From Pyruvatibacter sp. HU-CL02332 (lineage in GTDB: Bacteria > Pseudomonadota > Alphaproteobacteria > CGMCC-115125), in contig NZ_BAABWK010000001.1 of the NCBI RefSeq assembly GCF_040362765.1, positions 1,465,501 through 1,529,500 of the forward strand: a stretch of 64,000 bases of DNA, in the 5' to 3' direction. The notes beneath the pieces were generated by a model that worked only from the letters and a program-made list of their open reading frames with translations, had not been told where the DNA came from and searched no databases. Positions 37,075 to 58,074 of the stretch are shown piece by piece. The first letter of the stretch is position 1; every line of letters starts with the position of its first letter. A program made the position numbers and the translations under genes.

Positions 37075-37153
37075 GGGCCAGAGCAGATCAGCCACCTTAT
37101 GCCCAGAACAGCCGATATCCGGCTGCAAAAACAGACAAGGCAGGGAGATTCCG

Positions 37154-38239: not shown

Positions 38240-38283
38240 GAGGCACCTTGATTTTCAGTGACAACACGGAACACTCAGGCAAA

Positions 38284-38315: not shown

Positions 38316-38354
38316 CTATGTACCTTCAAATGGAAACGACGGTGACGAACGAGT

Positions 38355-40909: not shown

Positions 40910-40965
40910 CTTTACCTCCCGGCTGGACCACCCGTGGCGCTTGCACCAATCGTCCATCGTGTTAT

Positions 40966-40987
40966 TAACGAGACATATGTCTCATTA
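40966..40987. promoter_or_regulatory. TetR operator between divergent monooxygenase and TetR genes
   Basis: The core GAGACATATGTCTC (40970-40983) is a perfect 14-bp palindrome; adding TAA on the left and TTA on the right gives a 22-bp dyad with one mismatched pair. It lies 57 bp before the monooxygenase ATG and immediately before the TetR start, so one dimer site could shut both genes. Confidence 0.75.
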
Positions 40988-40997
40988 GGAAATGACG

Positions 40998-41597
40998 ATG
41001 TCAAGTGAGAAGACTCAACAGCCCGTGGACGCTGCCACTCCCAAGCGGCCCGGCGGGCGCACAGCTGAAAACTCCAGACGCATTCACGATGCGACGATCG
41101 AGCTTCTGGTAGAAGGAGGCTTTGAGGCGGTTACTTTTCAGGAGATTGCCCGGCGCGCAGGCGTGGGGCGCGCAACCCTTTATCGGCGCTGGGATTCACC
41201 ATCGATGCTTATCCGGGATGCGGTCCTGGACATCGTGGAGACGGAGATTTTTCCGGTTGATACCGGCACCTTTCACGGCGATCTAGTGCAACTGCTCCGC
41301 CAGATTGGCCGCTTCATATCGGGCACGGTCGGCGTGGCAGCCATGATAACGACCCTGTCCAATCCGGGGGCCCCCAGAGACATGACGGTCAATCCAGGCA
41401 TCTGGATGTCACGGCTTGAAGCGATTGCTCCGATTTTTCAGCGGGCAATCAAGCGTGGCGAACTGGACCCGGATCAGGATGTCGAAGCTCTGTTCGCGAG
41501 CCTGGCGGGGGCACTCTATTTCCGCATCATCGTCATGACAGAACCTGTAGACGATGCGTGGATAGAGCGCGTTTTGAAAGAAGCGTTTCGAAAATAG
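40998..41597 (+). CDS. TetR family transcriptional regulator
   Basis: Regulator of 199 residues: TAENSRRIHDATIELLVEGGFEAVTFQEIARRAGVGRATLYRRWDSPSMLIRDAV is a full TetR HTH, followed by a ligand domain with a TetR_C_16-like tail. ATG 40998 has AGGA at a proper distance; ATG 40992 is also in frame but too close to it. Divergent from the flavin monooxygenase, with the 22-bp dyad between them. Confidence 0.9.
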   Translation: MSSEKTQQPVDAATPKRPGGRTAENSRRIHDATIELLVEGGFEAVTFQEIARRAGVGRATLYRRWDSPSMLIRDAVLDIVETEIFPVDTGTFHGDLVQLLRQIGRFISGTVGVAAMITTLSNPGAPRDMTVNPGIWMSRLEAIAPIFQRAIKRGELDPDQDVEALFASLAGALYFRIIVMTEPVDDAWIERVLKEAFRK

Positions 41598-41722
41598 CCA
41601 CGCCAACTTCCCAGGCGCAGTTGAAATCTCACGTGGCGGCCGTCAATCAAATACGCCCGGCGACCACCAAGCTCCTGCCCCGCAGAATGGCAGCCTGCAA
41701 AACAGCGTGGAATCTACCCCGC

Positions 41723-42961: not shown

Positions 42962-42979
42962 GGTCGTTTTCTTCCTGAG

Positions 42980-43846
42980 TTACGCCTGTTTTCCAAGCTT
43001 GTCGATTTGGTCCCAGTAATCGCCGGCCAGCGCGACGCGACGCACAGCATCCGAATCCGTCGGTTCATGTCCGACGCTGTTAGCCGGCGCAGGAACCTCT
43101 TGAACCGTGTTGGACAGACGCCCAATGCCAGTGATTTCAACTTCGACCACATCCCCAATTGACATCGGCCGACTGAAAGCCGGTGTACCTGTGAGAACGA
43201 CATCCCCCGGCAGCAGCGTGATATGGCGACAAAGATCCGCAAGGATGTAGTCAATGCCGAAGTTCATCTCGGAGACCGGCCCCTCTTGAACCACTTTGCC
43301 GTTTATGTAGGTGCGAAGGGTCTCCTTTCGGATATCAACGCCCCGCACAATTCCAGGACCGATCGGACAGAACCCGTCCTGGCCTTTCACCCGAAGCATC
43401 GAGCCGGCATCTGTATCCCTGAAGTCCTGAGCGCCCACATCGTTGGCTGGCGCGAAACCCGCGAGATGATCCCACACCTCATCAGGCGCCAGATTCTTCA
43501 TTGGCTTCCCGACAATGGCTGCAATCTCACCCTCATAGTTCAGGTACTGACAGTCTGCTCCACGGTTCACATGGCCCCGATGCACATTCAGTGTACTGAG
43601 GGGTTTTTGAAAGTAGGTGGGGGTGACGAGATCTGGCGCCCGGAATTCTACTCGGCGCGACTCGTAGTTCAGGTGGATACAAATGATCTTGGTAGGATCA
43701 CAGGGCGGCAGATAGACAGCGTCTTTCTCAGCAAGTGAGCGGCCATCAGCAAGCAACAAGCGGTCATCACTCGGGCGCACCCAATGGGGCGTTCCCTCGT
43801 AGAAAATACGTCGCAATTCTTCTCTTGGCCCATCAAGTACGGACAT
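42980..43846 (-). CDS. Fumarylacetoacetate hydrolase family protein (HpaG-like)
   Basis: Protein of 288 residues of the FAH superfamily: KIICIHLNYESRRVEF, metal ligands in YEGEIAAIVGK (ExE) and the Asp in ANDVGAQDFRDTD, then KGQDGFCPIGPGI and GDVVLTGTPA. The family includes HpaG, the decarboxylase/isomerase of the homoprotocatechuate meta pathway, and C-C hydrolases. Neighbouring HpaI- and HpaH-type genes make an HpaG-like role plausible. Third gene in the - strand operon, 37 bp after the VOC gene. Confidence 0.85.
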   Translation of the reverse strand: MSVLDGPREELRRIFYEGTPHWVRPSDDRLLLADGRSLAEKDAVYLPPCDPTKIICIHLNYESRRVEFRAPDLVTPTYFQKPLSTLNVHRGHVNRGADCQYLNYEGEIAAIVGKPMKNLAPDEVWDHLAGFAPANDVGAQDFRDTDAGSMLRVKGQDGFCPIGPGIVRGVDIRKETLRTYINGKVVQEGPVSEMNFGIDYILADLCRHITLLPGDVVLTGTPAFSRPMSIGDVVEVEITGIGRLSNTVQEVPAPANSVGHEPTDSDAVRRVALAGDYWDQIDKLGKQA

Positions 43847-43883
43847 TTCGATCTTACCCTTTATTTTTGACTGGTAGCCCGCC

Positions 43884-44789
43884 TTAGGCCGGAACCATGA
43901 AGTCCTTCATGTTTTCGAGGACCGGTGCGTGGCCATATGCATCTCGCTGGAAATACTCGGACTGCCCGGTCGGTGCGCGACCGCCCCAGCCGATCTCGTT
44001 CATGAACCCCGACGGGTTCTTGAAGTAGAAGGAGAAGTTATGGTCATTAGCGTGGCTGCCCGGCTCAATGATCACGGGCAGCTGCGCCAGCCGGACGATA
44101 TCGTGGGTGAGGCCCACATCCTCCAACCGCTCAACTTCAAACATGAGATGGTTGACCCGCTTCTCAGCAGGTCCACCAAACGCAAGAGTGTGCTGGCGTG
44201 AGTTGCAGTGCAGGAACATCAGCTCGACAGGTTCGGGCTGGCCGGGCAGCGCAATCTTGTATTCAACTCCCCCGCGCAAACCGAGGATCGTGTAGAACGC
44301 GTGCAGATCTTCAAAGCTGGCACGCCGGTTGAGCATCATGTGGCCAAAGCCGCCGCCTGCCGTCTTGAAGCCGCCATGCATGCCCCGGCCCGGATGAAAG
44401 GGCTGGTCATACTGGACGAGCGGGCCGTGGAAAATCTCAAGAGGAAAGCCGTTGGGATCCTCTAGGAACATGACCTCCAGAACATGCCGCTCAGTCGCCT
44501 CTGCATCCGTGCCCACGCGGACATCACACCCGGCACCCTCAAGCCGTGCTGCCATCTCGCGAAATTCAAGAACGCCGGCAACCCGAAGGCCGATCGCCAT
44601 CACGTCATCTGACGGATCTTCAACAAGCTTGATGCGATGGTGCCAGTAATCCATCCGCAGGTAGCGCGTACTTGCATTTTCGCCCGGCCGCACATCGAGG
44701 GCCAAAACTTGCGATGCGAACGACTCCCATGCCGCAAGATCGCTTACCCCAATTGTGATGTAGCCCAGTTCAGTAATTTCTGTGGCCAT
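43884..44789 (-). CDS. VOC family type I extradiol dioxygenase (BphC/HpaD-like)
   Basis: Two-domain protein of 301 residues. Iron ligands expected for the family are seen: His in GGGFGHMMLN (about 148), His in RVNHLMFEVE (about 213), Glu in FMNEIGWGG (about 264); the Tyr in SFYFKNPSG lies nearby. These enzymes open catechol rings next to the diol using O2. GGGAGGATACC precedes the ATG. Second gene of the operon. The HpaD/BphC distinction cannot be settled by eye. Confidence 0.88.
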   Translation of the reverse strand: MATEITELGYITIGVSDLAAWESFASQVLALDVRPGENASTRYLRMDYWHHRIKLVEDPSDDVMAIGLRVAGVLEFREMAARLEGAGCDVRVGTDAEATERHVLEVMFLEDPNGFPLEIFHGPLVQYDQPFHPGRGMHGGFKTAGGGFGHMMLNRRASFEDLHAFYTILGLRGGVEYKIALPGQPEPVELMFLHCNSRQHTLAFGGPAEKRVNHLMFEVERLEDVGLTHDIVRLAQLPVIIEPGSHANDHNFSFYFKNPSGFMNEIGWGGRAPTGQSEYFQRDAYGHAPVLENMKDFMVPA

Positions 44790-44800
44790 TGGTATCCTCC

Positions 44801-46264
44801 CTAAGACGTGAATGCGTCTTTGCGCACGGCGATATTTTTGATGTCGGTATAGAAGTCGAAACTCCAGTTGCCGCCTTCCCGGCCAAGACCCGAGGTTCGG
44901 CTGCCGCCAAAAGGTGCCGACAGGTCACGGACAAAGAAGCAGTTCACCCAGATCGTTCCAGCAACCACCGCCGAAGCGATCCGCATGGCCCTGGCTTCAT
45001 TGCCACAGAACAACGTGCCCGCGAGGCCGTATTCAGTGTTGTTGGCGATGGCGATCACCTCGTCATCTGACTGGAAGGTCTGCCATGTAAGAACCGGGCC
45101 GAAGACCTCTCGCTGCGAAATCTCGGCGTCCGCTGCTGCGCCGCCAAACATGGTCGGTTGGAAGTAGAGATCACCCTCCGAAGACTGACTTCCGCCCCAC
45201 AAAACCTCGGCCCCATCTGCCTTGGCACGCTCGACGAAACCGGAAACGCGGGAAAAGTGCTCGGGGTGGATAAGCGGGCCGACACGGGTGCCAGGATCAC
45301 GCGGATCGCCAACGACCATATGGCCGGCGGCAGCACGTACTTTTTCAAGGAATTCTTCCTCGATCGATTTCTCGACGAGAACCCGGGTGCCCGCGAGACA
45401 CACCTGCCCTGCATTCATGTACTGCCCGGCAACGGTCTGCGCTGCAGCATCCAGATCTGCATCTGCACACACAATGAGGGGGGACTTACCACCCAGTTCG
45501 GCACTCAGAGGTGTAATGGACCGTGCAGCCGCCCCGCCAATGATCCGCGCCGTGTCGGTCGAACCAGTAAAGCTTATGCGCGCCACGTCCGGGTGATTGA
45601 CCAAGGCATCTCCGGCCTCCTCACCAATACCCTGCACAACGTTCAGGACGCCGGGAGGCAACCCCGCTTCATCCGCGATATCGGCCATCAATGAGCACGT
45701 CATGGGTGCCCACTCCGGTGGCTTCACAACAATAGTGTTGCCGGCTGCGAGCGCCGGCCCAACCTTCCAAGTCGTCAGCATCAAAGGAGCGTTCCAAGGC
45801 GTGATCAACGCCGCGACACCAGCTGGGTCATATTGGACATGTCCCACGACTTCATCGGAATTGATTGTGTGACCCTGCATCTTGAGGGCCCATTCGGCGA
45901 AGAAGGAGATATTGAGCGCTGAACGCGGCACCAGCCGATGCTTGTTGCCCATCAGCAGCGACCCGTTATCCGCAGTTTCAACTGCAGCCAGGTCATCTGC
46001 ACGAGCCAGCATCCGCTCCGCGAATTTTTTCAGAATGGGCAACCGCCCTTCCGGTCCAAGTGCTGCCCACGCGGGAAATGCCTTACGAGCCGCCGCCACG
46101 GCCGCATCGACATCTTCCTTACTGCCGGCAGAAACATCGGCAAGGAAGGCCCCGTCCACCGGAGAATTGTTCGTGAAATGCTGTTTTGACGCGACCCTGC
46201 GTCCCGCAATCCAATGATCAACGGAAACATCAACGCCTGCGATTGTCGCGGTTCTTGCCGCCAT
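44801..46264 (-). CDS. Aldehyde dehydrogenase (hydroxymuconic semialdehyde type)
   Basis: NAD(P)-dependent ALDH of 487 residues. The cofactor-site TPWNAPLML, FTGSTDTARIIG, catalytic Glu in SAELGGKSPLIVC and Cys in NAGQVCLAGTRV, and the C-terminal SGLGREGGNWSFDFYTDIKN are all present. In the homoprotocatechuate pathway HpaE oxidises the ring-cleavage semialdehyde; this gene's place beside an extradiol dioxygenase fits that. GGGAGG supports ATG 46264 over GTG 46270. First gene of the operon, divergent from TetR. Confidence 0.9.
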   Translation of the reverse strand: MAARTATIAGVDVSVDHWIAGRRVASKQHFTNNSPVDGAFLADVSAGSKEDVDAAVAAARKAFPAWAALGPEGRLPILKKFAERMLARADDLAAVETADNGSLLMGNKHRLVPRSALNISFFAEWALKMQGHTINSDEVVGHVQYDPAGVAALITPWNAPLMLTTWKVGPALAAGNTIVVKPPEWAPMTCSLMADIADEAGLPPGVLNVVQGIGEEAGDALVNHPDVARISFTGSTDTARIIGGAAARSITPLSAELGGKSPLIVCADADLDAAAQTVAGQYMNAGQVCLAGTRVLVEKSIEEEFLEKVRAAAGHMVVGDPRDPGTRVGPLIHPEHFSRVSGFVERAKADGAEVLWGGSQSSEGDLYFQPTMFGGAAADAEISQREVFGPVLTWQTFQSDDEVIAIANNTEYGLAGTLFCGNEARAMRIASAVVAGTIWVNCFFVRDLSAPFGGSRTSGLGREGGNWSFDFYTDIKNIAVRKDAFTS

Positions 46265-46317
46265 TGCCACCTCCCGGGAGCCCGGTCACAGATACAGAAT
46301 GATCTGGATCAAAGCTT

Positions 46318-46360
46318 AATTATGACTATTATCGTTTATGATTACAGTCAGAATATGACA
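46318..46360. promoter_or_regulatory. TetR operator region, divergent aldehyde dehydrogenase/TetR genes
   Basis: AATTATGACTATTATCG (46318-46334) recurs with two changes at 47121-47137. It also forms an imperfect inverted repeat TGACTATTATC (46323-46333) / GATTACAGTCA (46340-46350), nine of eleven pairs, followed by TGACA at 46356-46360. The site lies about 55-90 bp before the TetR ATG at 46452 plus surroundings, well inside the divergent promoter region. Confidence 0.6.
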
Positions 46361-46451
46361 AGCTCAATTTTTGTCAAGCAGCCGTTTTCACCCTCGTGTA
46401 TGAGGTGTACGGAGACATGTGTGATATTGGCCGCGTAAGAGAGGACCGCAG

Positions 46452-47105
46452 ATGCCACGGCAATTTTCCCCTGCTAACAAGGCCGAGACACCGGACGAAC
46501 CATCGCGAATGGGGCGGCGGGAAAGATCTAAGGTGGAGAAGCGTGCGCGCATCATTGGGGCGGCACGTGCCTTGTTTGCCCAGCAGGGTTTTGCCGAAAC
46601 CACCACGCAGCAGGTTGCCGCAGCAGCTGATATCGGCACCGGGACATTGTTCCTTTATGTCAAGTCCAAGGAAGATCTGCTGGCGCTGGTCTTCAAGGAC
46701 GAGATGCAGGCAACAGCCATTGATTCCTTCAAGAAACTGCCGCCAGACACAGCTCTTGTTGACCAGATCCTCACCGTGTTTGACCGGATGATCGAGTACC
46801 ACGAAAAGGATCTCGACCTGGCAAGAGTGTTGATCAAGGAGATCGCAATACCTGCATCAGCAGAACGCGCGGCAGACCTGAACGATCTTGTCGAGACCAT
46901 CATGATGGGCTTTGCCGACCTCGTCCGCACCGCCCAGAGCAACGGCAGTTTGCCCCGGGCGCTTGAGCCCATGCTCACCGCCCGCACGATCTTCGCTATC
47001 TACTATTTCGACCTTGTCGGTTGGCTCGGAAACGTCCATTCACGCGACGACTTCCTGAAGGGCCTGCGCTCCCAGCTTGAGTTGCTGCTTGACCGTCCCG
47101 CTTAA
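46452..47105 (+). CDS. TetR family transcriptional regulator
   Basis: Regulator of 217 residues: KVEKRARIIGAARALFAQQGFAETTTQQVAAAADIGTGTLFLYVKSKEDLLALVF forms the HTH, followed by a ligand domain. AGAGAGGA stands before the ATG. It sits between the - strand ALDH-VOC-FAH-P450 operon and the + strand aldolase-hydratase-dioxygenase genes. The shared AATTATGACTANNATCG elements suggest it controls both. Confidence 0.9.
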   Translation: MPRQFSPANKAETPDEPSRMGRRERSKVEKRARIIGAARALFAQQGFAETTTQQVAAAADIGTGTLFLYVKSKEDLLALVFKDEMQATAIDSFKKLPPDTALVDQILTVFDRMIEYHEKDLDLARVLIKEIAIPASAERAADLNDLVETIMMGFADLVRTAQSNGSLPRALEPMLTARTIFAIYYFDLVGWLGNVHSRDDFLKGLRSQLELLLDRPA

Positions 47106-47116
47106 GTTCTGGTCTA

Positions 47117-47137
47117 AGTCAATTATGACTACAATCG
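47117..47137 (+). promoter_or_regulatory. Second copy of the TetR element, before the aldolase gene
   Basis: AATTATGACTACAATCG (47121-47137) matches 46318-46334 at 15 of 17 positions. With the bases before it, AGTCA-ATTA-TGACT (47117-47130) is a perfect 5-bp inverted repeat. It is 41-61 bp before the aldolase ATG. Confidence 0.6.
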
Positions 47138-47177
47138 GTTTTGGCTGATTGGGAAATAGCAGGCGGAGGCAAGACAC

Positions 47178-47957
47178 ATGTCCGGGAACCTCAAGGACAG
47201 GATGAAAAAGGGCGACGTGCTGCTGGGGGCCTGGTGCATGATCCCCGGTGCACTGACAGCAGAGATACTGGCCAGCAGTGGCTTTGATTGGGTGCTTGTG
47301 GATATGCAGCATGGCTGCATGGACTATGAGACTGCCCTGGAGATGATACGCGCGATCGATCTGGGCGGCGCAACGCCAATCGTCCGGGTTCCCTGGAATG
47401 AACCTGGAATTATCGGGCGCATGCTTGATGCCGGAGCCATGGGTATTGTGGCGCCGATGATCCAGACGCCTGATGACGCCGCCAGACTTGTAGAGGCATG
47501 CCTTTATCCGCCTGTTGGCCGGCGCAGCCTGGGCCCAATCCGTGTTGGCGTGCGTGACGGCGCAGGATATTTCGCCGGTGCAAACGACCGGGTGATGGTT
47601 ATTCCAATGATTGAGACAGTAGAAGCACTCGAATCTGTTGAAGAGATCGCTGCCGTACCGGGCATTGATGCACTGCTTGTTGGCCCCTTCGACCTATCCA
47701 TCGCACTGGGCCTGCCGCCCGGCGACAATGATGGGAAGCCGGCATTTGATGCAGCAGTCGCCCGGATAAACCGGGCCGCAAAAGACGCTGGACGCGCAAC
47801 AGCCGTACTCTCAACGGGAGCTCTGGCCCCAGTGAGGGCAGGCCAAGGCTTCCAGCTCATCTCGACACTGACGGATGCGCCCGCATTCACCCGCACAGCA
47901 CATATGGAACTTGAGAAAGCCCGCGCCGGACTCACAGAGGAAAAGACAGATGCTTGA
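47178..47957 (+). CDS. HpcH/HpaI family aldolase
   Basis: Class II (metal-dependent) 2-oxo-acid aldolase of 259 residues: [38 protein letters not shown], and the metal ligands in MIETVEA (Glu) and LLVGPFDLS (Asp). HpaI cleaves 4-hydroxy-2-oxoheptanedioate to pyruvate and succinic semialdehyde, the last step of the homoprotocatechuate meta route. GGAGG precedes the ATG. Overlaps the hydratase gene by eight bases, so the two are made together. Confidence 0.9.
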
Positions 47958-48741
47958 TCAGGAAACCCGCAGCGGGATAGCCCGAGATATTCTTGCCGTT
48001 TTCGAAACCCGCAAGCCACTTGGACTGCTGACAAAAACGCATCCCGGCATCACCGTCGAAGACTCTTACCGCATTCAGGAGATGTGCATCGCACAGAGGC
48101 TCTCCGAAGGCAGGTCCATACGCGGATACAAGGTGGGCCTGACATCGAAGGCCATGCAGGAATTGACGGGATCAACCGAGCCGGATTTCAGCGCGATGAC
48201 CGATGACCTGTATCTGCCTGAAGACACGCCGCTGCAGATGTCAGACTTCATCCTGCCGATGATCGAGATCGAAATTGCGTTCGTCATGAAAGACGCCCTG
48301 AAGGGTCCGGGCATCCTGCCAGTGGATGTGATCCGCGCGACTGACTTCGTGCTGCCTGCCATCGAGATCGTGGATTTCCGCGTCGGCCCGGGTCCGGGAA
48401 TGACAGTCGCGGACACGATAGCGGACTTTGCAGCGTGCGGCGCTGCCGTGCTGGGCGCCAACCCTCGCCGGCTCGACCAGATTGACATCCGGCGCATACA
48501 CGGCGAGCTGATTCAGAACGGCGAGGTAAAGGAGGCGGGGGTCTCATCAGCCGTTCTCGGCAACCCCGTGACGTCAGTTGCCTGGTTGGCAAACAAGCTT
48601 GGCGAATTCGGAGTCGCCTTCGAGCCGGGACAAGTCATCCTGACCGGGTCATTCGTCCGAACTGTTCCTGTGCAGCCTGGAGATGAGATCATTGCCCGCT
48701 TCGACAATGGCTTGGGCGACGTCATCGCGTCGTTTGTCTAG
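47950..48741 (+). CDS. 2-oxo-hepta-3-ene-1,7-dioate hydratase (HpaH-like) / 2-keto-4-pentenoate hydratase family
   Basis: Protein of 263 residues. [49 protein letters not shown] and [26 protein letters not shown] closely follow E. coli HpaH, which adds water to the dienoate before HpaI cleaves it. The Glu ligands of the metal are in EIEIAF. Overlap with the aldolase gene supports the pairing of the two steps. Confidence 0.9.
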
Positions 48742-48801
48742 GATGCCCGTCGGTCAGTCTCCCACAAAGCAGGCTCGGAGCAGTTTTGGAGCGGACCAAA
48801 G

Positions 48802-49602
48802 ATGACCAGATTGCCTGCCATGTTCTTGTCACACGGGGGCGGCCCATGGCCCTACCTGACGGGCCCGCTTCGCGATGAGTTCAATCTTCTCGAAGCGTCC
48901 TTGAAAGCCCTTCTGCCCAATCTTCCTGTCCAGCCAAAAGCAATTCTGGTGGTCACAGCACACTGGGAAACACACAGCTTCATGCTCTCGTCGAGCAGAA
49001 AACCCCCGATGATTTACGACTATGGGGGATTTCCAGAGCACACCTACCACGTCACCTACAATGCTCCAGGCAGCCCGGAGCTTGCAGAACGCGCTTGCAA
49101 GCTCATCACAACAGCCGGCATGGATTGTGGGCTGGATAGGGAACGCGGTTTTGATCACGGCACCTTCAGCTTGATGGAGATAGTGCGACCGCAGGCGGAT
49201 ATTCCCGTTGTCCAACTCTCCATCCGACAAGACTTTGATCCACAGGCACATATCGCGGCAGGACGCGCCCTTGCTCCGCTGAGAGACGAGGGCATTCTCA
49301 TCGTTGGTAGCGGCCTCAGCTACCACAATTTACAGAAGTTCGGTCCAGACGGTGCAGATGCCTCGCGGGATTTCGACCTTTGGCTGAAACAGACCCTGAT
49401 GACGATGTCAGGCGCACAACGCAACAAGCAAATATGCCAATGGGAAGCCGCGCCAGCTGCACGGCTGGCTCACCCGAGCGAGGACCACCTGCTTCCATTG
49501 TTTGTCGCCCTGGGATCCGCCGAAGCTGACCCTTGCGCAATAAACTACAGCCAGTCGGACTTCATGGGACACCTGACTGTCTCAAGCTTCCGCTTCGGAT
49601 AA
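48802..49602 (+). CDS. DODA/LigB-type extradiol ring-opening dioxygenase
   Basis: Class III extradiol enzyme of 266 residues: MFLSHGGGPW (metal His), VTAHWETH (metal His), GFDHGTF (active-site His) and GSGLSYHNL. E. coli YgiD-type and plant DOPA 4,5-dioxygenases share this plan. It is unrelated in fold to the VOC dioxygenase of the opposite arm, so the cluster holds two types of ring-opening enzyme. Starts 60 bp after the hydratase and ends just before the displaced tRNA fragment at 49664. Confidence 0.88.
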   Translation: MTRLPAMFLSHGGGPWPYLTGPLRDEFNLLEASLKALLPNLPVQPKAILVVTAHWETHSFMLSSSRKPPMIYDYGGFPEHTYHVTYNAPGSPELAERACKLITTAGMDCGLDRERGFDHGTFSLMEIVRPQADIPVVQLSIRQDFDPQAHIAAGRALAPLRDEGILIVGSGLSYHNLQKFGPDGADASRDFDLWLKQTLMTMSGAQRNKQICQWEAAPAARLAHPSEDHLLPLFVALGSAEADPCAINYSQSDFMGHLTVSSFRFG

Positions 49603-49663
49603 GCACCCGGGGCAGTGCGGCATCTGTTTCGCAAGAAACACATCAATGCCTGTCACAATGTAT

Positions 49664-49736
49664 GGAAAATTGGAGCGGGCGATGAGATTCGAACTCACGC
49701 CCCCAACCTTGGCAAGGTTTGCATGGCGGTGTTCGG
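49664..49736 (-). repeat. Displaced tRNA-Gly 3' fragment, distal attachment-site remnant
   Basis: The 52-bp core 49668-49719 matches the 3' part of tRNA-Gly(GCC) at 57997-58048 with one change: anticodon stem-loop, T-arm, acceptor 3' strand and CCA. The 73-bp unit 49664-49736 matches 54114-54186 at 71 positions, so the match continues about 17 bp past the tRNA-derived part. That extra part is expected from an element's P arm. It cannot fold as a tRNA because the D-arm and 5' acceptor strand are missing. Confidence 0.85.
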
Positions 49737-49841
49737 GAATTCGAGTAGATTTGACGTGGGCTCCGGAGACTTCACCAAATCTGAGCGCTAACGACAGAGA
49801 GCACGGTTCGACAAATGCTCGGAACACCAGGATTTGGACGG

Positions 49842-49858
49842 GTAACCTTGGTGTAACC
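49842..49858. promoter_or_regulatory. Candidate integrase arm-type sites (distal element)
   Basis: GTAACC-TTGGT-GTAACC, two direct repeats with an 11-bp period, starting 123 bp from the end of the att core. The same pair stands at the same distance from the second core at 54292. Confidence 0.55.
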
Positions 49859-49899
49859 CGATTACAGACGGCTCTCGGCAGAGGGCCGCATTGGACGCA

Positions 49900-49985
49900 C
49901 CCGTCACAATACGGCACCCAGCGTCATCCAGCGCCTCCTTCAGCACATCGAAATCCACTTCAGCGGTGAAACGCGGAATCTTCAT
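49900..49985 (-). pseudogene. Truncated 5' end of a phytanoyl-CoA dioxygenase-like gene
   Basis: ATG at 49985 with GGGAGAAG upstream opens KIPRFTAEVDFDVLKEAL and then DDAGCRIV, which resembles the N-terminus of PhyH-family Fe(II)/2-oxoglutarate dioxygenases (helix plus D-x-G-x-x-I/V). The frame then runs into non-homologous sequence beside the arm-type sites and stops at 49788; the family length is about 250-300. The truncation point is approximate and the family call rests on about 28 residues. Confidence 0.4.
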
Positions 49986-50346
49986 TTGTGATTCTTCTCC
50001 CAAGCGCCTGAAGCACGATCAATACGGAACTCCAGAGATTTTGATTGTCGTGACAAGTGTCATGTTTTAGTGTCGAACGATGTTGCGCTGTGGCAGACAC
50101 ACGGCGAGACCCCGAGAGGGGCACGCGCGAGTCCTCGATTTGCGGACACGGGGAGAAAAGGAATGACCATGGAGGCCATCGTTCAAACAGACGGCACCTA
50201 TGCCGGTCAGCAGAAGTTCCCACCCACGATCAGTGTGGACGGAAACGCTACCGCGCAAGTGTGGACCACAGCAGCGTGTGAAGCCGTCAAAGACCTTAAG
50301 ACGGGGATTTGGTCTGGCGAAACGCTGGCGTGGATCACGGGTCGCC
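49986..50346. other. Leader region of the TetR/amine oxidase operon
   Basis: No convincing gene in these 361 bp. The reading frame at 50163-50360 starts with a fair site (AAAGGA) but has no family resemblance and overlaps the TetR start. GTGTGGAC occurs twice, 16 bp apart within the 50235-50270 stretch, and could be part of an operator. The operon promoter must lie here. Confidence 0.4.
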
Positions 50347-50979
50347 ATGCAAGACTTTAAAGAAATTGAACGCACACCAAACACCAAGGGAGCGCGCAGC
50401 CGCGAGCATGTGCTCGAGGCCGCTCTGCGCGTAATTGGTACGTCAGGCACGGAAGCTGTCACCTATAGGTGCGTTGCAGATGAAGCGGGACTGACGCGCG
50501 GTGCCGTCGCCCATCACTTTCCCTCGCGGGAGCAGATCATCCTGCAGGCGTTTCGCCACTACATCGAGACCGTAGACGCCAGTCTTTCCGAGATTTCTGC
50601 GCGGCTGGACGATGACAGCATCGACGGCGTCATCGAGCTTTTGGTGCGGTACCACCAGCGCGAGTTTCGCGATCCCGCGCGCGTACTCGCAGAGTACGAA
50701 CTCATCCTGTTTGCCGCACGGAACGAAGCGGTCGGCCGCGAAGTCCGAAGCTGGGAGCACGCCCTGATCGACCGGCTCGAGTCCCGGCTCAACCGCGCCG
50801 GTACAGATCAACCGCACCAGTCTGCGCAGCTATTGCTTGCGGTGTTTCGTGCATTCGAACTCGACAGTCTGACAGGCCGTGACAACAACCCCGAAGAGCT
50901 GCGGGCCCGCTTGCAGGCGCTGTTTCCGGCAAAGGTACGCAAACCCAGAACGACGACATCCAATGGAGCAAAGATATGA
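50347..50979 (+). CDS. TetR family transcriptional regulator
   Basis: Regulator of 210 residues: ARSREHVLEAALRVIGTSGTEAVTYRCVADEAGLTRGAVAHHFPSREQIILQAF is the HTH, followed by an all-helical ligand domain. The start at 50347 leaves a normal 14-residue lead before the HTH. The stop overlaps the amine oxidase ATG by four bases (ATGA), so regulator and enzyme share an mRNA, which implies autoregulation with its own target. Confidence 0.9.
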   Translation: MQDFKEIERTPNTKGARSREHVLEAALRVIGTSGTEAVTYRCVADEAGLTRGAVAHHFPSREQIILQAFRHYIETVDASLSEISARLDDDSIDGVIELLVRYHQREFRDPARVLAEYELILFAARNEAVGREVRSWEHALIDRLESRLNRAGTDQPHQSAQLLLAVFRAFELDSLTGRDNNPEELRARLQALFPAKVRKPRTTTSNGAKI

Positions 50980-52883
50980 CCGTGACGACTGCGGCAGAGC
51001 GCCACCCACTTGACCCCTGCACGGCCGACGAATTGTCAAAGGCCGTATCAATTCTGCGCAAAGAGGTCGAGCTCAGCCAGCGAAGCTTCTTCTCCTGCGG
51101 CATGCTGGTCGAACCCGAGAAGCAGACAGTCCTTGGGTTTTCTCCCGGCTCATCGATCGACCGGCGGGTCCGACTCATAGGTCATGACCGCGAAAAGGGT
51201 CAGAGTTTCGAAGCAATCGTCGCGCCCGAAGAAGACAAGCTCGTGGAGTGCCATTGGATCGAAAACGGTCAGGCCCCCTTGAATATGGAAGACGTCCTGG
51301 CCGTATACGCTGCCCTTGCGGAGCATCCCGACTGGCTGGCCGCGCTGGAGAAACGCGGGATCACCGACACATCACTGGTACACATTGAGCCGTGGCTATC
51401 CGGGATCCGCCCGCCGGAAATGCCGGAAGGCCGCGTACTGCGCGCACTGGCGTTCCTGCACACGCACCCCGACGACAATTACTACGCACGGCCGGTAGGT
51501 GGACTCATCGCGCTGATTGACACCGACAGCGGTAACGTCATCGTGCAGGACCACGGTGTGACCCCCATTCCCGAGTCACCTGCGGATTACGCAGCCAGCT
51601 TTGTTGAGACGCAGCGAGAGGACATAAAACCTCTCGAGATCACTCAGCCCGACGGCCCGAGCTTTGAAGTACAGGGCCAGGTCATTAAGTGGCAGAAATG
51701 GCAGATGCGCATCTCAGTGCACCCGATCGAGGGACTGATCCTCCACGATGTACGCTACGACGATGACGGCAAGGACAGGTCCATACTGTACCGGGCTTCG
51801 CTGTCCGAAATGGTCGTGCCGTATGGAGACTCGGACCCGATCCAGTATTGGAAGCATGCCTTTGACGCCGGCGAAACAGCACTCGGTCAACAGGGCAACT
51901 CACTGAAGCTTGGATGTGATTGCCTCGGGGAGATTCATTATTTCGATGCGGTTATGCTGGGCACGGATGGTAGTCCGTATACGGTCGAAAATGCCGTGTG
52001 CCTGCACGAAGAAGACTATGGGATCCTGTGGAAGCACACGAACCTGTTCCGCCCCGATCTGCCACCAGAAGTCCGCCGGTCGCGCCGGCTGGTGATTTCC
52101 ATGATCCACACGATCGGCAACTATGAGTATGGCTTCTTCTGGTACTTCTACCAGGACGGCACCATCCAGTTGGAAGTCAAGCTGACCGGGATCATCGGCG
52201 TGTCAGTGGCGGAGAATGGTGAAGGGACGTCTACGTCGCCCCTCGTGGCGCCTGGCATCACATCACCCATTCATCAGCACCTGTTCTGTTTCCGTCTGGA
52301 CTTCAACCTGGACGGCCTCGACAATACTGTGGTCGAAGCAAACGTCGTACCTATGGCCAACGATCCGCACCCCTATGGCGCCGGTTTCGAAGCAACACGG
52401 CAGGTGCTGACCCACGAGGCCGACGCCAAGCGGCGCATTGATCCCGCAGCCAGCCGCAACTGGCGGATCGAGAATCCGAATGTGACAAACCAGCTCGGCA
52501 AACCCGTCGCCTACAAGCTGTTGCCGCAGGCGTCGCCGACTTTCTTTGCAGGAGATGACACAGTGGCAGGCAAGCGCGGTGGGTTTGCGCGCCATAATCT
52601 CTGGGTCACACCTTACGACGAGGCTGAACACTACGCGGGCGCAGGCCCGTTCACGAACCTCCACACCGGCGGTGTGGGGCTTCCGGACTATACAAAGGAC
52701 AACCGTGCGATCGAGAACACCGATGTCGTGGTCTGGCATACCTTCGGCGTGACCCACGTGCCACGGCCGGAGGACTGGCCGATCATGCCGGTGGAATACG
52801 CTGGCTTCATGCTGGTGCCGTCGGGCTTTTTCGACCGCAATCCCGCACTTGACGTACCGCCATCAAAAAAGTGCTCAGGCTAG
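50976..52883 (+). CDS. Primary-amine oxidase (copper/TPQ)
   Basis: Copper amine oxidase of 635 residues, the length of Arthrobacter AGAO. All catalytic residues are present: base Asp297 (FDAGE), topaquinone precursor Tyr383 in GNYEYGF, copper ligands His433 and His435 (HQH) and His594 (VTHVPRPED). The enzyme oxidises RCH2NH2 to aldehyde, NH3 and H2O2. No signal peptide, so it is cytoplasmic as in AGAO. Between TetR (4-bp overlap) and a serine hydrolase (15 bp gap). Confidence 0.95.
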   Translation: MTVTTAAERHPLDPCTADELSKAVSILRKEVELSQRSFFSCGMLVEPEKQTVLGFSPGSSIDRRVRLIGHDREKGQSFEAIVAPEEDKLVECHWIENGQAPLNMEDVLAVYAALAEHPDWLAALEKRGITDTSLVHIEPWLSGIRPPEMPEGRVLRALAFLHTHPDDNYYARPVGGLIALIDTDSGNVIVQDHGVTPIPESPADYAASFVETQREDIKPLEITQPDGPSFEVQGQVIKWQKWQMRISVHPIEGLILHDVRYDDDGKDRSILYRASLSEMVVPYGDSDPIQYWKHAFDAGETALGQQGNSLKLGCDCLGEIHYFDAVMLGTDGSPYTVENAVCLHEEDYGILWKHTNLFRPDLPPEVRRSRRLVISMIHTIGNYEYGFFWYFYQDGTIQLEVKLTGIIGVSVAENGEGTSTSPLVAPGITSPIHQHLFCFRLDFNLDGLDNTVVEANVVPMANDPHPYGAGFEATRQVLTHEADAKRRIDPAASRNWRIENPNVTNQLGKPVAYKLLPQASPTFFAGDDTVAGKRGGFARHNLWVTPYDEAEHYAGAGPFTNLHTGGVGLPDYTKDNRAIENTDVVVWHTFGVTHVPRPEDWPIMPVEYAGFMLVPSGFFDRNPALDVPPSKKCSG

Positions 52884-52897
52884 GGGGCAGCTTTCGG

Positions 52898-54058
52898 ATG
52901 CGATCGTTTTCACGCGACAACTGGCTCACGCCGCAACATAACCGGACAAGCTTTCAGCACCTGCAATCGCTCTTTCCAACGGCGCGATTGAAACGAGGAA
53001 CTGAACCCCCATCGCCCCTGCCGTCAGACCACGTGGAAGTTGGACACTTCCGGTTCGGGTGGCCCAACGGCGATGAGCACACGATTAGTCAGTTCCTCGA
53101 GGACACGTACACGGATGCGTTCCTGATACTGAGGGACGGTGTCCTGATCCACGAACACTATGAAAATGGGATGCAGCCTGACAGCCTGCACCTGCTCAAC
53201 TCGATATCGAAGACGTTCCTCGGGATGCTTGCAGGCGTGTTTGTGGCCGATGACACAATTGCCTTGGACGAGCGCGTCGCGACCTATGTTCCACAGCTCA
53301 CAGGAACAGCCCTCGACCAGGCGACGCTGCGTCAGGCACTCGACATGACAGCGGGCGTCACCTTCGGTGAAGACTATGCAGTCGCAACCGATGACTTCTG
53401 GGTCGAAACGGCTGTTATCGGCTGGCGCCCGGACCTGGCAGACCGCGCGGCCACAACTTCCCTGAAAGACTACGCAAGCGATAAAAAATCAGCCGGGCAC
53501 GCCGATGGAGAAGCGTTCCACTATCGCACCCTTCTCACAAACATCGTTGCCATGGCTATCGAAGGTGCAACGCACACGCCCGTTCAGGACCTCATGGCGC
53601 AGCACCTTTGGCAGCGGCTGAAACCGGAATACGACGCAAATGTCGTTGTTGATGGAGCAGGGTTCCCCTACTTCGGTGCCGGGATGAGCGCCAGCGCCCG
53701 TGACCTGGTGCGTTTCGGGCAGATGCTCCTGAATAACGGGCAGGTTGATGGCGAACAGGTGATTCCCGAAAGCTGGGTTCGATCAACGCGGGCCGGCAGC
53801 GACGAACGGCGGGCGCATTTCGCAGTGACCGATTACGCGCCTGTCCTGCCGAACTGGCATTACCAGAACCAGACCTGGGCATGTCAGGCCGACGACGCCC
53901 TTTTGTGTATCGGCATTTTCGGACAGACAGTCTATGTGCACCAGCCTTCAGGGATCGTCATCGTAAAACTGTCCACGCACCCCGAACCTGCAAATGACCG
54001 CCTTTATGCCCACACCTTCATGGCAATGCGGGCATTGGCAGAAGGGCTTGCAACCTGA
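52898..54058 (+). CDS. Serine hydrolase, beta-lactamase/NylB-like family
   Basis: Protein of 386 residues with the SxxK active-site motif at Ser102-Lys105 (NSISKTFLGML) and LDMTAGVTFGEDYA nearby, whose Tyr could complete the Ser-Lys-Tyr set. The general layout (VGHFRFGWPNGDEHTISQ, late WACQADDALLCIGIFGQTVYVH) resembles 6-aminohexanoate-dimer hydrolase and related esterases/amidases. ATG 52898 with AGGGGG upstream is preferred over GTG 52871. Linked to an amine oxidase, so release of an amine from an amide is a testable role. Confidence 0.85.
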   Translation: MRSFSRDNWLTPQHNRTSFQHLQSLFPTARLKRGTEPPSPLPSDHVEVGHFRFGWPNGDEHTISQFLEDTYTDAFLILRDGVLIHEHYENGMQPDSLHLLNSISKTFLGMLAGVFVADDTIALDERVATYVPQLTGTALDQATLRQALDMTAGVTFGEDYAVATDDFWVETAVIGWRPDLADRAATTSLKDYASDKKSAGHADGEAFHYRTLLTNIVAMAIEGATHTPVQDLMAQHLWQRLKPEYDANVVVDGAGFPYFGAGMSASARDLVRFGQMLLNNGQVDGEQVIPESWVRSTRAGSDERRAHFAVTDYAPVLPNWHYQNQTWACQADDALLCIGIFGQTVYVHQPSGIVIVKLSTHPEPANDRLYAHTFMAMRALAEGLAT

Positions 54059-54113
54059 TTTGGCGCAACGCCTCCAAGGCCCATCCAATGAAGACGGCGT
54101 TCACAGCTGACAA

Positions 54114-54186
54114 GGAAAATTGGAGCGGGCGATGAGATTCGAACTCACGCCTCCAACCTTGGCAAGGTTTGCATTGCGGTGTTCGG
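54114..54186 (-). repeat. Displaced tRNA-Gly 3' fragment, internal attachment-site remnant
   Basis: Core 54118-54169 equals the tRNA 3' part at 57997-58048 except for two adjacent changes. The unit matches 49664-49736 at 71 of 73 positions. Same orientation as the real tRNA. It marks the boundary between two tandem integrated segments. Confidence 0.85.
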
Positions 54187-54591
54187 TCATTGCAACGAGT
54201 TGAAGCAGGCTTTTGAGGAGTGCCGGACTAGCGTCCCATTGGATACGACGCTTCACCTCTAGGTTGCCCGGGACTCTGCAGTGCACACCATGTAACCGCC
54301 CGGTAACCAACGCCCTATTTCACACAAGAGCAACGCCGGCTCAAAAGGTCGAACGGAACAGTGTCCCAACAGGCAGTTGAGTTGGCCCTATCGGCTTTCC
54401 TTGCGACGAACTCAAGTCGTCACTCAACAGATGGGCGCTTGGGCCGGGATAATCAGTGTTTGACGTAATCGCAAATGGATTTGCTCACGTAGGGTGCCTA
54501 TCACCGGGCTCTTCGGCCAAAACTCCGCTGAAAATCCGCTTCCTGAGTTTACGCGGCGATCCGAGAAACATCGAAACCGCACACAGCATCA
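54187..54591. other. Degenerate element arm, no gene recognised
   Basis: Between the att core and the SDR gene there is no frame with family resemblance. The first part holds the arm-type pair at 54292. Further on, GCAAAT-GG-ATTTGC (54471-54484) is a small inverted repeat. This is where the integrase gene of the proximal element would be expected; none is visible. Confidence 0.5.
54292..54308. promoter_or_regulatory. Candidate integrase arm-type sites (proximal element)
   Basis: GTAACC-GCCCG-GTAACC, starting 123 bp from the end of the att core at 54169, exactly as at 49842. The bases between core and repeats do not otherwise align between the two copies. Confidence 0.55.
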
Positions 54592-55440
54592 CTATTCTTC
54601 TAAGCCTAGAGATTGAATGACTTGCTCGTTGAATCGAGACGACCCTGTCAGATTTTGTCCACCATCAACTCGAATGCTGGTGCCGGTGATGAAATCTGCC
54701 AGTGGCGTAGCCAAAAATGCCGAGAGATTTGCGATCTCGCTGGCCTGCCCTAAGCGCCTCATGGGTACGGTCGAAACCCAAAAGTCTTCCGCTTCGCCGC
54801 CGCTCAACACTTCCATGCCGCGCGTGTTTGAAATCGGACCGGGCACGATACAGTTCACGCCTATTGAGTTCTCCCCCCATTCCAATGCGAGCGTCTGCAT
54901 CAGCATTTCAATTCCAGCTTTTGCTGCTCCGACATGTGACTGGCCATAGTAGGGAGCAAACGCCTGCCCGGCGGAAATGAACAAGGCGCTCCCTTTCGTG
55001 GCCTTGAGTTGCTCAAAGGCACCCTTCGCCGCATGAAAAGTTCCTAGCAAGTCGATTTCAACAACCGTTTTGAACGCGTTTGAACTCATGGACTCAGCGG
55101 ATGCAACGAAGTTTCCTGCAGCGGCACAAACCAGATAATTGACCGGGCCGTTAACCCGTCCACACGTTTCAAGCGCCTCGCAAACAGCGTCTGCGTCGCG
55201 AATATCGACAGCAAAAGTCGCGATCTTCCCCCCGTATACCAATAACGCGTCTTCGGCGTGCTTAAGTTTGTCGGCCCTCCGACCGCATATGCCCACATTG
55301 GCACCCAACGCCGCTAAGGTGTGAGCTATGCTCAATCCGATGCCACTCCCTCCACCGGTAATGAAGGCGCTGGAGCCATTCAGGCAACCTGGTGTCATGT
55401 ACTCATACAGCGATGGATCGATAGAAGAATTCTGAGTCAT
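54592..55440 (-). CDS. SDR family protein of the 2,4-dienoyl-CoA reductase type
   Basis: Protein of 282 residues: FITGGGSGIGLSIAHTLAALGANVGICGRR near 25, CAAAGNFVASAESMSSNAFKTVVEIDLLGTF near 107, and SHVGAAKAGIEMLMQTLALEWG. The usual YxxxK is replaced by SHVGAAK, and CAAAGNF replaces NNAG, both as in DECR-type dienoyl-CoA reductases. Start alternatives are ATG 55440 and 55488; neither has a good ribosome-binding site. Downstream of the carotenoid oxygenase gene by 142 bp on the same strand, inside the proximal element. Confidence 0.82.
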   Translation of the reverse strand: MTQNSSIDPSLYEYMTPGCLNGSSAFITGGGSGIGLSIAHTLAALGANVGICGRRADKLKHAEDALLVYGGKIATFAVDIRDADAVCEALETCGRVNGPVNYLVCAAAGNFVASAESMSSNAFKTVVEIDLLGTFHAAKGAFEQLKATKGSALFISAGQAFAPYYGQSHVGAAKAGIEMLMQTLALEWGENSIGVNCIVPGPISNTRGMEVLSGGEAEDFWVSTVPMRRLGQASEIANLSAFLATPLADFITGTSIRVDGGQNLTGSSRFNEQVIQSLGLEE

Positions 55441-55582
55441 ATGATTGGTTTCGTTGGGTTGGGAGGATTGGCCGAGTGGATGCTTCATCAGGTCCGCGGG
55501 TCTCTTGATCGCTGGCGATGTGCTGAGTCGTCAGTTCAGGCCTGCGCGCTGCAATTTGGACGCTGGGCCGAAGTCCGTATCC

Positions 55583-56929
55583 CTACAGCGTTGCTTCGGG
55601 AATCCAGCTTCCATGAAACGTGACAGGAACGCGCTGCGGGAGGATGATCTCTCCAACCGGACCGTCACTAACTTTTGTTGCATCAAACACGGAGGCCTTT
55701 GATGCGCCTGTTTGCGCGTGGACCCCAAATGTCAAAATCCAACCGTCGCCTTCGTCGGCCGTTTCGCTCGCTGGCACGAACACGCCTTCACTTGCGACGA
55801 CGCGTTCTTCAAAGCCATAAGAGGAAGCATTTCCGCGTCCATCATGGACAATGAGTCCAGAACCGCCATCGGAATTGAATAGTTCAGTTGTCACAGCGAA
55901 GCTTGATGGTTTTCCCCAGTACCGGTCATCAATGCGAGGATATTCTTGAATGCGCTGGTCAATCAGTTGATCTGTCATTTTTCCGGTCTTCATATTGAAG
56001 ACCCAACGGTGCAGCTGAGGCGGCGCGGTATCGCCGGGACCGGTGCGGTCTTCGTCAAACATTTTCGCAAATTGCACGACATCGCAGATGATCTCGGAAA
56101 GACCGCCTGCCTCGTCATAGACCTCCCACGCATTGACGGCGTGAAACACAAAGCACGGCTCTAGATCGAACCAACGAACATCAGGCGTTTTGGCGTTCAG
56201 CGGGCGGATACCGACGCGAGTTGGGTAGTCCGGGTCCCACTTGTACGGAGCTTGTTCTCCGGCATCTTGAAGTTCTTGGCGATGCTGAAGCGGCATGTCC
56301 CAGATGATCGCGAAGTTTTCCGTCATTGCAAAATCATGGATCCAACTTGATCCCCCGAGCGGGATATCTGTTTTCCAGCCCAGCGATCCATCTGGCTCAA
56401 TCACAAAATGCGTCGCGATCTTCTCAGCGTTTACATCGAATCCAATTGCATGAAGGCGCCCCGTTGCGGGGTCAGTATGTGGATGAGCTGTAAATCCCTG
56501 AGCGATGTCACCGTCAAACGTGTCACGCATGATCGTCTTAAGGCTTGAATCCAGCTGATAAGGAATACAAGCCTCCGTCATGGCGTACAGTTTGCCGGCA
56601 AACGGAACAATATGTGTGTTGGACGTGTCCTGGCGATCAACGGGATCGGCGACGGGCGTTTCACCAAGCTTGCGGCTCACGTCTTCTGTGCGAACCCAAC
56701 GGTTCTTGTATGACGTGGCTTTGCCGTTAGACAGGGTCATGGCGTGAACCATCCCGTCACCAGCGAATAGATTGTGATCTTCCGCATGCGGCGGAATCGG
56801 GTTGGGTCCAATGCGCGTTAGCATCCCATTTAGCTCAGGGGGAATTGATCCGATCACTTCGAGATCGAACACCTCGACTTCTTGATCAACTGGCGCGTAA
56901 GGGCCGCGCACCCATTTTCCGGTTGTCAT
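55583..56929 (-). CDS. Carotenoid oxygenase family protein (RPE65/lignostilbene dioxygenase superfamily)
   Basis: Protein of 448 residues, a seven-bladed propeller by family. The four iron-binding histidines fit FTAHPHTD, SSWIHDFAMTE, FVFHAVNAWE and the final VTFHGSWIPE; GDGMVHA and NGMLTRIGPNP also match. Members cleave C=C bonds in carotenoids, apocarotenals or stilbenes with O2. Which one is not decidable here; a lignostilbene role would suit the aromatic catabolic surroundings. A dyad operator lies 21-35 bp before its ATG. Confidence 0.9.
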   Translation of the reverse strand: MTTGKWVRGPYAPVDQEVEVFDLEVIGSIPPELNGMLTRIGPNPIPPHAEDHNLFAGDGMVHAMTLSNGKATSYKNRWVRTEDVSRKLGETPVADPVDRQDTSNTHIVPFAGKLYAMTEACIPYQLDSSLKTIMRDTFDGDIAQGFTAHPHTDPATGRLHAIGFDVNAEKIATHFVIEPDGSLGWKTDIPLGGSSWIHDFAMTENFAIIWDMPLQHRQELQDAGEQAPYKWDPDYPTRVGIRPLNAKTPDVRWFDLEPCFVFHAVNAWEVYDEAGGLSEIICDVVQFAKMFDEDRTGPGDTAPPQLHRWVFNMKTGKMTDQLIDQRIQEYPRIDDRYWGKPSSFAVTTELFNSDGGSGLIVHDGRGNASSYGFEERVVASEGVFVPASETADEGDGWILTFGVHAQTGASKASVFDATKVSDGPVGEIILPQRVPVTFHGSWIPEATL

Positions 56930-56949
56930 TACTGGTCGCCTCCTCAGAA

Positions 56950-56964
56950 GATAACTAAGTTATC
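56950..56964. promoter_or_regulatory. Operator dyad before the carotenoid oxygenase gene
   Basis: GATAAC-TAA-GTTATC has perfect 6-bp arms, 21 bp before the oxygenase ATG, in the divergent region with the TetR gene at 57226. A TetR dimer bound here would block the - strand promoter. Confidence 0.55.
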
Positions 56965-57225
56965 ACACCAAGTATGCCAGTTTTGTGGGACTGTCAAGGG
57001 ACCCGGTTTTCGGTGGCTGTTACCGCCATAAGCCTAAGACACGACCAGAATCAGCCACACCAATTGCTCGTCCTGTCTGCGCGTTAGCGAACAGCAACAA
57101 CGAAAGAGCAATCAATTGCTTGCATTTCCACCATTCGGCGCGCGACGTCGCCCGGTTATTGAGCCGCCATTTGCGTGATACGAAGAGCGGACAAATACGC
57201 TGTCAGAGTCGAGGAAAACGTCACC

Positions 57226-57801
57226 ATGGCAATTGAAACACGCGCAAAAATCTTGAAAGCCGCGAGTGATTTGCTGGTTGAAGAAGGCATAAACGCACTC
57301 AATGTGCGGGCGATTTCGAGCAAAGCCGGCATGTCTACGATTGGCATATACCGCAGATTTGGCGATCGTCAGGGCGTGCTAGATGCTCTTTGCCAAGAGG
57401 GTTGGGTGCGGCTTCGCGACACCATGAATGCGTGCGATAGCGACGGGTCGCCAAAAGAAGTGATCATGCGTCGCATCGAAGTCTATGTCGACATCGCGAA
57501 TGACTATCCCGCGCATTATCAGCTGATGTTCGAAGCATCGACACGCGGTTACAAGCCATCTGCCGATACGCGGGCCCTGGCCCGGGAAACATTTCAAGAA
57601 GTCTTGGACGGCGTTGCGACGCTTCCAGATCTAACTGTCGACTCAGACCTCCTCGCAATCGAACTACTAGGACTAACACACGGGTTGCTGACCGTAGGCG
57701 TGCATCCAAACAAAGGCATCCTGCGCGTAAAAGACTGGAGAAGCGCTATTCTGTCTGCTTGTTCGGCACATATAGAGGCGCGCACAGGACCTGTATCCTA
57801 G
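57226..57801 (+). CDS. TetR family transcriptional regulator
   Basis: Regulator of 191 residues: TRAKILKAASDLLVEEGINALNVRAISSKAGMSTIGIYRRFGDRQGVLDAL is the HTH. The start at 57226 has GAGG about 11 bases upstream; a GTG at 57175 would add 17 residues. Codon use looks less GC-rich than in the flanking chromosomal genes, consistent with transfer. Divergent from the carotenoid oxygenase and nearest gene to the tRNA attachment site. Confidence 0.9.
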   Translation: MAIETRAKILKAASDLLVEEGINALNVRAISSKAGMSTIGIYRRFGDRQGVLDALCQEGWVRLRDTMNACDSDGSPKEVIMRRIEVYVDIANDYPAHYQLMFEASTRGYKPSADTRALARETFQEVLDGVATLPDLTVDSDLLAIELLGLTHGLLTVGVHPNKGILRVKDWRSAILSACSAHIEARTGPVS

Positions 57802-57996
57802 AATGGCGACTATGGACTTGATCTGAGACCCAACGCTCATCCCGTTGGAGGCGGTTTCCTTTGATCATTGGAATGCGGCAAGTCGGATTGCAGCCAGCCA
57901 AGTGCGGCCAAGGCGGCCAAATTAGGTCTCAGCGCAGTGTACGTAGCCGTACAGCGCGACAAGGCCCCGAAAAGCGCGGTATCTAAGATGTCGGAG

Positions 57997-58048
57997 AATT
58001 GGAGCGGGCGATGAGATTCGAACTCACGACCCCAACCTTGGCAAGGTT
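57997..58048 (-). repeat. Attachment core within intact tRNA-Gly
   Basis: This 52-bp segment is the tRNA part repeated at 49668-49719 and 54118-54169. Identity starts at the 5' side of the anticodon stem (AACCTTGCCAAGGTT), a common crossover site for tyrosine integrases, and runs past the CCA. Confidence 0.8.
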
Positions 58049-58074
58049 GTGCTCTACCCCTGAGCTACGCCCGC
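58000..58074 (-). tRNA. tRNA-Gly (anticodon GCC)
   Basis: 75 nt including encoded CCA. The acceptor stem GCGGGCG / CGCCCGC pairs fully, the anticodon loop is TTGCCAA in a CAACC/GGTTG-type stem, and the T-arm contains GTTCGAATC. It is the only complete tRNA seen in the window and is transcribed toward the two tandem elements. Confidence 0.96.

Follow-up and report, generated by a model that had tools for sequence, protein, structure and literature searches.

How the 3′ end of one tRNA gene came to stand three times in a row in the same direction, with short modules of regulator and enzyme genes between the copies, is the question raised by this locus. We approached it from the repeats themselves, the genes that they enclose, the corresponding sites in related genomes and the mobile elements described elsewhere that share this layout.

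A tRNA end repeated in tandem

A tRNA-Gly(GCC) gene is the sole tRNA gene called by ARAGORN in the window (herein the whole 64-kb stretch of DNA that was analysed), and the stretch that holds it (57997-58074) has 100% identity with three congeneric genomes (G001, G002, and G003). Two further copies of the 3′ part of this gene, both in direct orientation, occupy 49668-49719 (98% over 52 bp, E 9e-23) and 54118-54169 (96%, E 2e-20). The two displaced copies match one another at 97% over 73 bp (49664-49736 and 54114-54186), and the final 17 bp of this 73-bp unit are common to both and missing from the tRNA gene. A preliminary description of the locus had claimed one complete tRNA-Gly(GCC) with two same-direction 3′ copies, and about 17 bp that the copies share and the tRNA lacks; the ARAGORN call and the sequence matches bear out both claims. 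The features concerned are:

58000..58074, minus strand: intact tRNA-Gly(GCC) gene (ARAGORN), its 3′ end the putative integration target
49664..49736, plus strand: displaced copy 1, about 56 bp of tRNA 3′ end with 3′ flank, followed by 17 bp of P-arm
54114..54186, plus strand: displaced copy 2, about 56 bp of tRNA 3′ end with 3′ flank, followed by 17 bp on the element side (P-arm)
49700..49700, no strand: A/C position, C in the displaced copies and A in tRNA-Gly

With up to 3 mismatches allowed, the window contains two instances of the element-side motif, TTTGCATNGCGGTGTTCGG, as opposed to 0.06 expected in shuffles, and the strong matches to the 73-bp unit across the locus' own genome (3.45 Mb in 3 contigs, with completeness given as 100) are confined to these three places, five others being 17-24 bp long (E up to 10). 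The att-like sites are well kept (96-98% identity to the tRNA end), and a direct repeat of the tRNA 3′ end lies at the distal boundary, as in tRNA-integrated genomic islands. Folding of the att region gave no signal, with 169 of 200 shuffles folding at least as well.

One diagnostic base sets the gene against its copies: both displaced copies carry C (49700 and 54150), whereas tRNA-Gly carries A (58029). Outside the own genome, A stands at this position in all 33 copies recovered with an exact pattern and in all 38 recovered with a looser one (the 38 being copies rather than genomes, with some genomes contributing two, and including 4 of the 29 loci L009-L037 that fall outside the exact pattern). 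Two of the 38 A-bearing copies are themselves displaced, that of G017, a genome of the same class, and apparently that of G010; because these keep A, the C cannot be put down to displacement as such. The copy in G010 (L023) lies on a 3.7-kb contig, where a tRNA-Gly 3′ copy is present and its 5′ side departs after the anticodon stem, and is probably another displaced att copy. At our locus, the common C suggests a single att family and, since it most simply came with the attP of the elements, also suggests a crossover to the left of the A/C position, in the T-arm/acceptor part of the gene. The C may instead stem from separate mutation after displacement or from conversion between the copies.

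Cargo genes and the search for a recombinase

The segments between the repeats had been put at about 4.4 and 3.9 kb, each with a regulator-plus-enzyme module, and closer analysis agrees on both counts, Pfam assigning to each one regulator of TetR type and a pair of enzyme genes:

49720..54113, no strand: segment A, 4.45 kb repeat to repeat, with TetR, copper amine oxidase and PF00144 serine hydrolase
50350..50979, plus strand: TetR-family regulator of segment A (Pfam TetR_N, TetR_C_31)
50976..52883, plus strand: primary-amine (copper) oxidase of segment A, 635 aa (NCBIfam NF008559 above cut-off; Pfam Cu_amine_oxid)
52871..54058, plus strand: serine hydrolase of the PF00144 (Beta-lactamase) family, segment A (Pfam)
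54170..57992, no strand: segment B, 3.88 kb repeat to repeat, with SDR, carotenoid-oxygenase-family protein and divergent TetR
54592..55488, minus strand: short-chain dehydrogenase/reductase (SDR) of segment B (Pfam adh_short_C2)
55583..56929, minus strand: protein of the RPE65/carotenoid cleavage dioxygenase family, segment B, 448 aa (Pfam RPE65; best NCBIfam NF052295 below cut-off)
57175..57801, plus strand: TetR-family regulator of segment B (Pfam TetR_N)

None of the best 25 of 32 NCBIfam models reaches its cut-off for the PF00144 protein, and a resistance gene is hence not suggested in segment A. Segment A has a G+C content of 58.5% and segment B one of 53.8%, compared with 57.4% for the stretch to their left (26212-49663) and 61.2% to the right of tRNA-Gly. 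Apart from the att unit, the two segments have no repeat of at least 18 bp in common; their ends past the 17 bp share 8- to 11-mers at chance level, and neither promoter-like sites (4 vs. 3.6 expected) nor terminator-like sites (11 vs. 8.8 expected) gave a signal. No gene was recognised in the roughly 630 bp to the right of copy 1 or in the roughly 420 bp to the right of copy 2. On the P-arm side of segment A, positions 49880-49990 of the minus strand may hold the N-terminal remnant of a gene, presumably reminiscent of phytanoyl-CoA dioxygenase; Pfam, PDB and plasmid searches with this suspected remnant (~49.88-49.99 kb) returned nothing usable, as did searches with the short frame at 50163-50357, and we claim an identity for neither.

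The preliminary description saw no recombinase, relaxase or phage gene here, and the profile searches confirm this view. Between 49.7 and 58.0 kb, Pfam classes all six long, mutually non-overlapping ORFs as regulators or enzymes and none as one of those three kinds of gene, two overlapping ORFs in other frames at the left end of segment A have no Pfam match, and the PF00589 and PF00239 profiles have no match inside the segments. Integrase, relaxase and conjugation genes are likewise absent from the six ORFs by Pfam, as in CIMEs, which are described as having lost their integration and transfer genes while keeping their att sites, and as often stacked by accretion (PMC5704250, PMC7563491).

Elsewhere in the own genome, PF00589 (a family matched in 14 of 14 control genomes) finds three proteins. 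Two have XerC and the Xer/XerD group as their best NCBIfam models, with scores just short of the equivalog cut-offs for XerC and XerD; the third lies beside tRNA-Val(CAC). The PF00239 serine recombinase profile, matched in 10 of the 14 control genomes, has no match, and an integrase for tRNA-Gly was thus not found in the own genome by either search. The IntI-type integrase that marks integrons is not among the three PF00589 proteins, which score 119, 131, and 32 bits against a TIGR02249 cut-off of 265. The 343-aa integrase directly after tRNA-Val(CAC) (L082 822-1981) was considered as a putative mover of the segments and set aside, as it adjoins that other tRNA. The frame that follows it resembles, by eye, a DNA cytosine methyltransferase, and the two mark a second tRNA-bound island, possibly a complete one.

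With no integrase in the segments, these could be truly non-autonomous miniature cassettes, consisting of attP and cargo, in which an integrase was never present and which were moved in trans by the integrase of a passing element. Such an origin would fit their small size, the single compact module in each, the lack of any common repeat of that length besides the att unit and the lack of integrase debris by PF00589; however, a helper integrase was not recognised in the own genome by PF00589 and PF00239, and in the collections searched the P-arm did not turn up beside any other tRNA end. A 20-bp core-plus-P-arm pattern matched one stretch in a species-genome collection, in a locus without a tRNA, and both this and a second P-arm pattern had 0 matches in IMG/VR (scans of the two collections may omit records of the own or a very near genome). 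At up to 2 mismatches, core-plus-P-arm matches occur in 7 of 385 class genomes, namely the own genome (two sites) and 6 of the 384 others; these 6 exceed a backward control pattern (1 match in the 385 genomes), but none has a tRNA-Gly 3′ end within 75 bases, and a T-arm-like 9-mer lies within 150 bases of one match alone (G267, L098). We take the stretch in the species-genome collection and the matches in the 6 class genomes to be chance, there being no tRNA-Gly end beside them. A full-length element with an integrase and the same P-arm, for which the preliminary description had recommended searching, did not emerge from the species-genome collection, IMG/VR or the 385 class genomes. We consider miniature cassettes unlikely, and quite unlikely a cassette-like capture of genes on the tRNA att site, whereby integrases working in trans would bring to tRNA-Gly minimal integrase-free units of an att site, one regulator and its enzymes.

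The cargo itself has distant relatives. Segment A matches 66 records of a plasmid collection, all at 60-80% identity and none covering 80% of the segment (the 8 of the 66 that were listed all fall in the amine-oxidase part), and segment B has no match in that collection. Of 190 class genomes, 10, among them the own genome, match the amine oxidase at E up to 1e-100; the best other match (65%) is in G094, at a locus where the 16 kb compared contains no tRNA and the amine oxidase is the sole match among 14 window proteins. With E up to 1e-80, the carotenoid oxygenase matches 2 of the 190, the own genome and one more at 36%.

The same site in congeners

All three congeners, of which G003 is the closest (97% in the thioredoxin/TPR protein), retain the tRNA-Gly gene together with its 5′ neighbour, the thioredoxin/TPR gene, whereas the sequence on the 3′ side departs after about 10 bp and leads into different genes in each (2.7 kb compared in G002). 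A conserved 5′ side with a variable adjacent 3′ side, here in 3/3 congeners, is characteristic of tRNA-integrated islands, and because the congeners differ on the one side while the other is conserved, these alignments mark the 3′ side of this tRNA-Gly(GCC) gene as an integration hotspot in the genus. The window is colinear with G003 up to 26211 and again from 57997; between these points lie 31.8 kb in the window versus about 2.5 kb in G003. From 40 to 58 kb, the tRNA is the sole DNA match in G001 (best 40 of 57 candidates), G002 (38 of 38), G003 (best 40 of 59), and G012 (33 of 33).

An empty site, with the DODA gene directly before tRNA-Gly, had been expected among relatives. No such site was seen in the congeners, and tblastn finds no DODA-like protein in the stretches compared beside tRNA-Gly in eight genomes (G001, G002, G003, G012, G017, G025, G029, and G046). 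The DODA gene belongs instead to the variable stretch of about 32 kb, which from 26211 on is not common to G003 at the same place; as it lies inside the gap in synteny with G003 between 26211 and 57997, DODA is ruled out as a flanking backbone gene. Since neither an empty site nor a relative with the same repeats was found in the genomes compared, presence or absence of the exact segments was never seen. The variable stretch thus extends well to the left of copy 1:

26212..49663, no strand: further variable stretch with sulfatase, P450, aromatic-ring and meta-cleavage type genes and DODA, not 3′ of tRNA-Gly in G003

The left end of this stretch showed no tRNA-Gly fragment, and because these 23 kb are variable without such a repeat, other processes also shape the region. 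Within it, 31.2-38.2 kb has its counterpart at another place in G003 (83%), with pieces on other G002 contigs at 76-83% and none in G001 (26.2-44 kb compared, with the best 40 of 70 candidates in G001, of 48 in G002, and of 80 in G003). Rearrangements hence do occur here, making a mosaic of the sequence left of copy 1, and this would suit an explanation of the displaced copies as duplicates of the tRNA end arising from rearrangement rather than as att sites. We hold this to be highly improbable, however, given that two 52-bp fragments that end in the tRNA body, carry a common 17-bp foreign flank and lie only 3′ of the tRNA form the usual footprint of att sites.

Two parts of the variable stretch are of interest for their gene content. 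The 7 kb at 31189-38239 is a catabolic stretch with an FMN reductase, an SDR, a P450, a MalT/LuxR-type regulator, and a luciferase-like monooxygenase. Positions 38355-49602 hold an FAD hydroxylase, a P450, two FAH-family proteins, an extradiol dioxygenase, an HpcH aldolase, and a LigB/DODA protein, a set of aromatic/meta-cleavage type with no congener DNA match from 40 kb on.

Proposed accretion at tRNA-Gly and its parallels

We propose, with a probability of about 0.78, that the locus consists of two decayed CIME-like elements accreted in tandem at tRNA-Gly. The 3′ end of tRNA-Gly(GCC) would be the attachment site, most likely of a family of tyrosine-recombinase elements, and two elements of the same attP type would have integrated there one after another; at each insertion the tRNA end would be rebuilt from attP, and the 3′ fragment, joined to the P-arm, would be pushed to the left. 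Integrase and transfer genes would have disappeared from both elements or never have been part of them, the remainder being two tandem CIME-like segments that keep their regulator-plus-enzyme cargo and could move only if a helper integrase acted on them in trans or through accretion with a newly arriving element. Repeats and a P-arm confined to the locus, together with an adjacent 3′ side that differs in every congener, support tandem integration; these, along with an element in G017 described below, also uphold the earlier proposal of two tandem integration footprints with related att sites. As between decay and a miniature non-autonomous origin, decay is our reading of choice as the more economical; loss by decay is an assumption, since PF00589 finds no integrase remnant.

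The order of events could also be different, in that a composite element or pre-formed tandem, reaching from copy 1 to the tRNA, arrived whole with copy 2 as an older internal att scar. Copies 1 and 2 do have one substitution and the P-arm in common, and transfer of CIME-ICE tandems is described (PMC5704250). The unequal G+C content of the segments and the absence of a common repeat outside the att unit argue against a single import and are not decisive. We regard it as possible, if doubtful; it concerns history alone and overlaps with the accretion of two decayed elements, and the likelihoods given to the explanations are not exclusive and need not sum to one.

If two decayed elements did accrete here, the locus is, by analogy, a known kind of arrangement and behaves like a CIME tandem. 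Judging by its gene types, we take its host to be an alphaproteobacterium and not a streptococcus. Classical streptococcal CIMEs measure 1.2-13 kb with cargo, and in their tandems, as at this locus, segments that are flanked by att sites and devoid of recombination and transfer genes are stacked at the 3′ end of a single target gene (PMC7563491); a functional element beside the segments was not found here, in contrast to those tandems, and the label CIME-like refers to layout rather than to ICE/IME descent. A second parallel is offered by the ssrA islands of Dehalococcoides, which stand in tandem between direct repeats of the target RNA 3′ end. Next to every repeat lies a short motif on the element side, the gene and the repeats disagree at a conserved base, and some of the islands are discussed as lacking genes for integration or transfer (PMC3146451). 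Tandem layout, motif beside the repeat and conserved disagreement base are thus alike at tRNA-Gly; however, a serine recombinase, a tmRNA target and insertion in the T-loop characterize the Dehalococcoides islands, 16 of which keep the integration module (none was found at the tRNA-Gly locus) and whose cargo includes reductive dehalogenases. The present locus offers a two-step footprint that reads cleanly, along with a diagnostic base by which the crossover would be placed, and, if the segments still move, a small testable model for the addition of regulator-plus-enzyme modules without an integrase of their own.

A further element at the same tRNA is found in G017, where 10.4 kb separate the tRNA from a displaced tRNA-Gly 3′ copy that adjoins a PF13356/PF00589 tyrosine integrase. 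At our locus, the places that correspond to this integrase are the stretches of about 630 and 420 bp, noted above, in which no gene was recognised. This was the only element among six loci with a second match near tRNA-Gly that were picked by eye; G046, G029, G025, and G054 were ruled out by having two complete tRNA-Gly genes each, and G006 by having one tRNA and a 21-bp match. The G017 element shares with our locus the tRNA, the direct orientation of the displaced 3′ copy and the side on which it lies, but differs in its 10.4-kb length, the presence of an integrase, a core that ends at the anticodon loop and a different P-arm; because its displaced copy ends at the anticodon loop, a different type of integrase may act there. 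Frames within this element (L103 1544-12100) resemble, by eye, an HTH/metallopeptidase pair and ubiquitin-like, E1-type and E2-type proteins, and the element is possibly a defence island.
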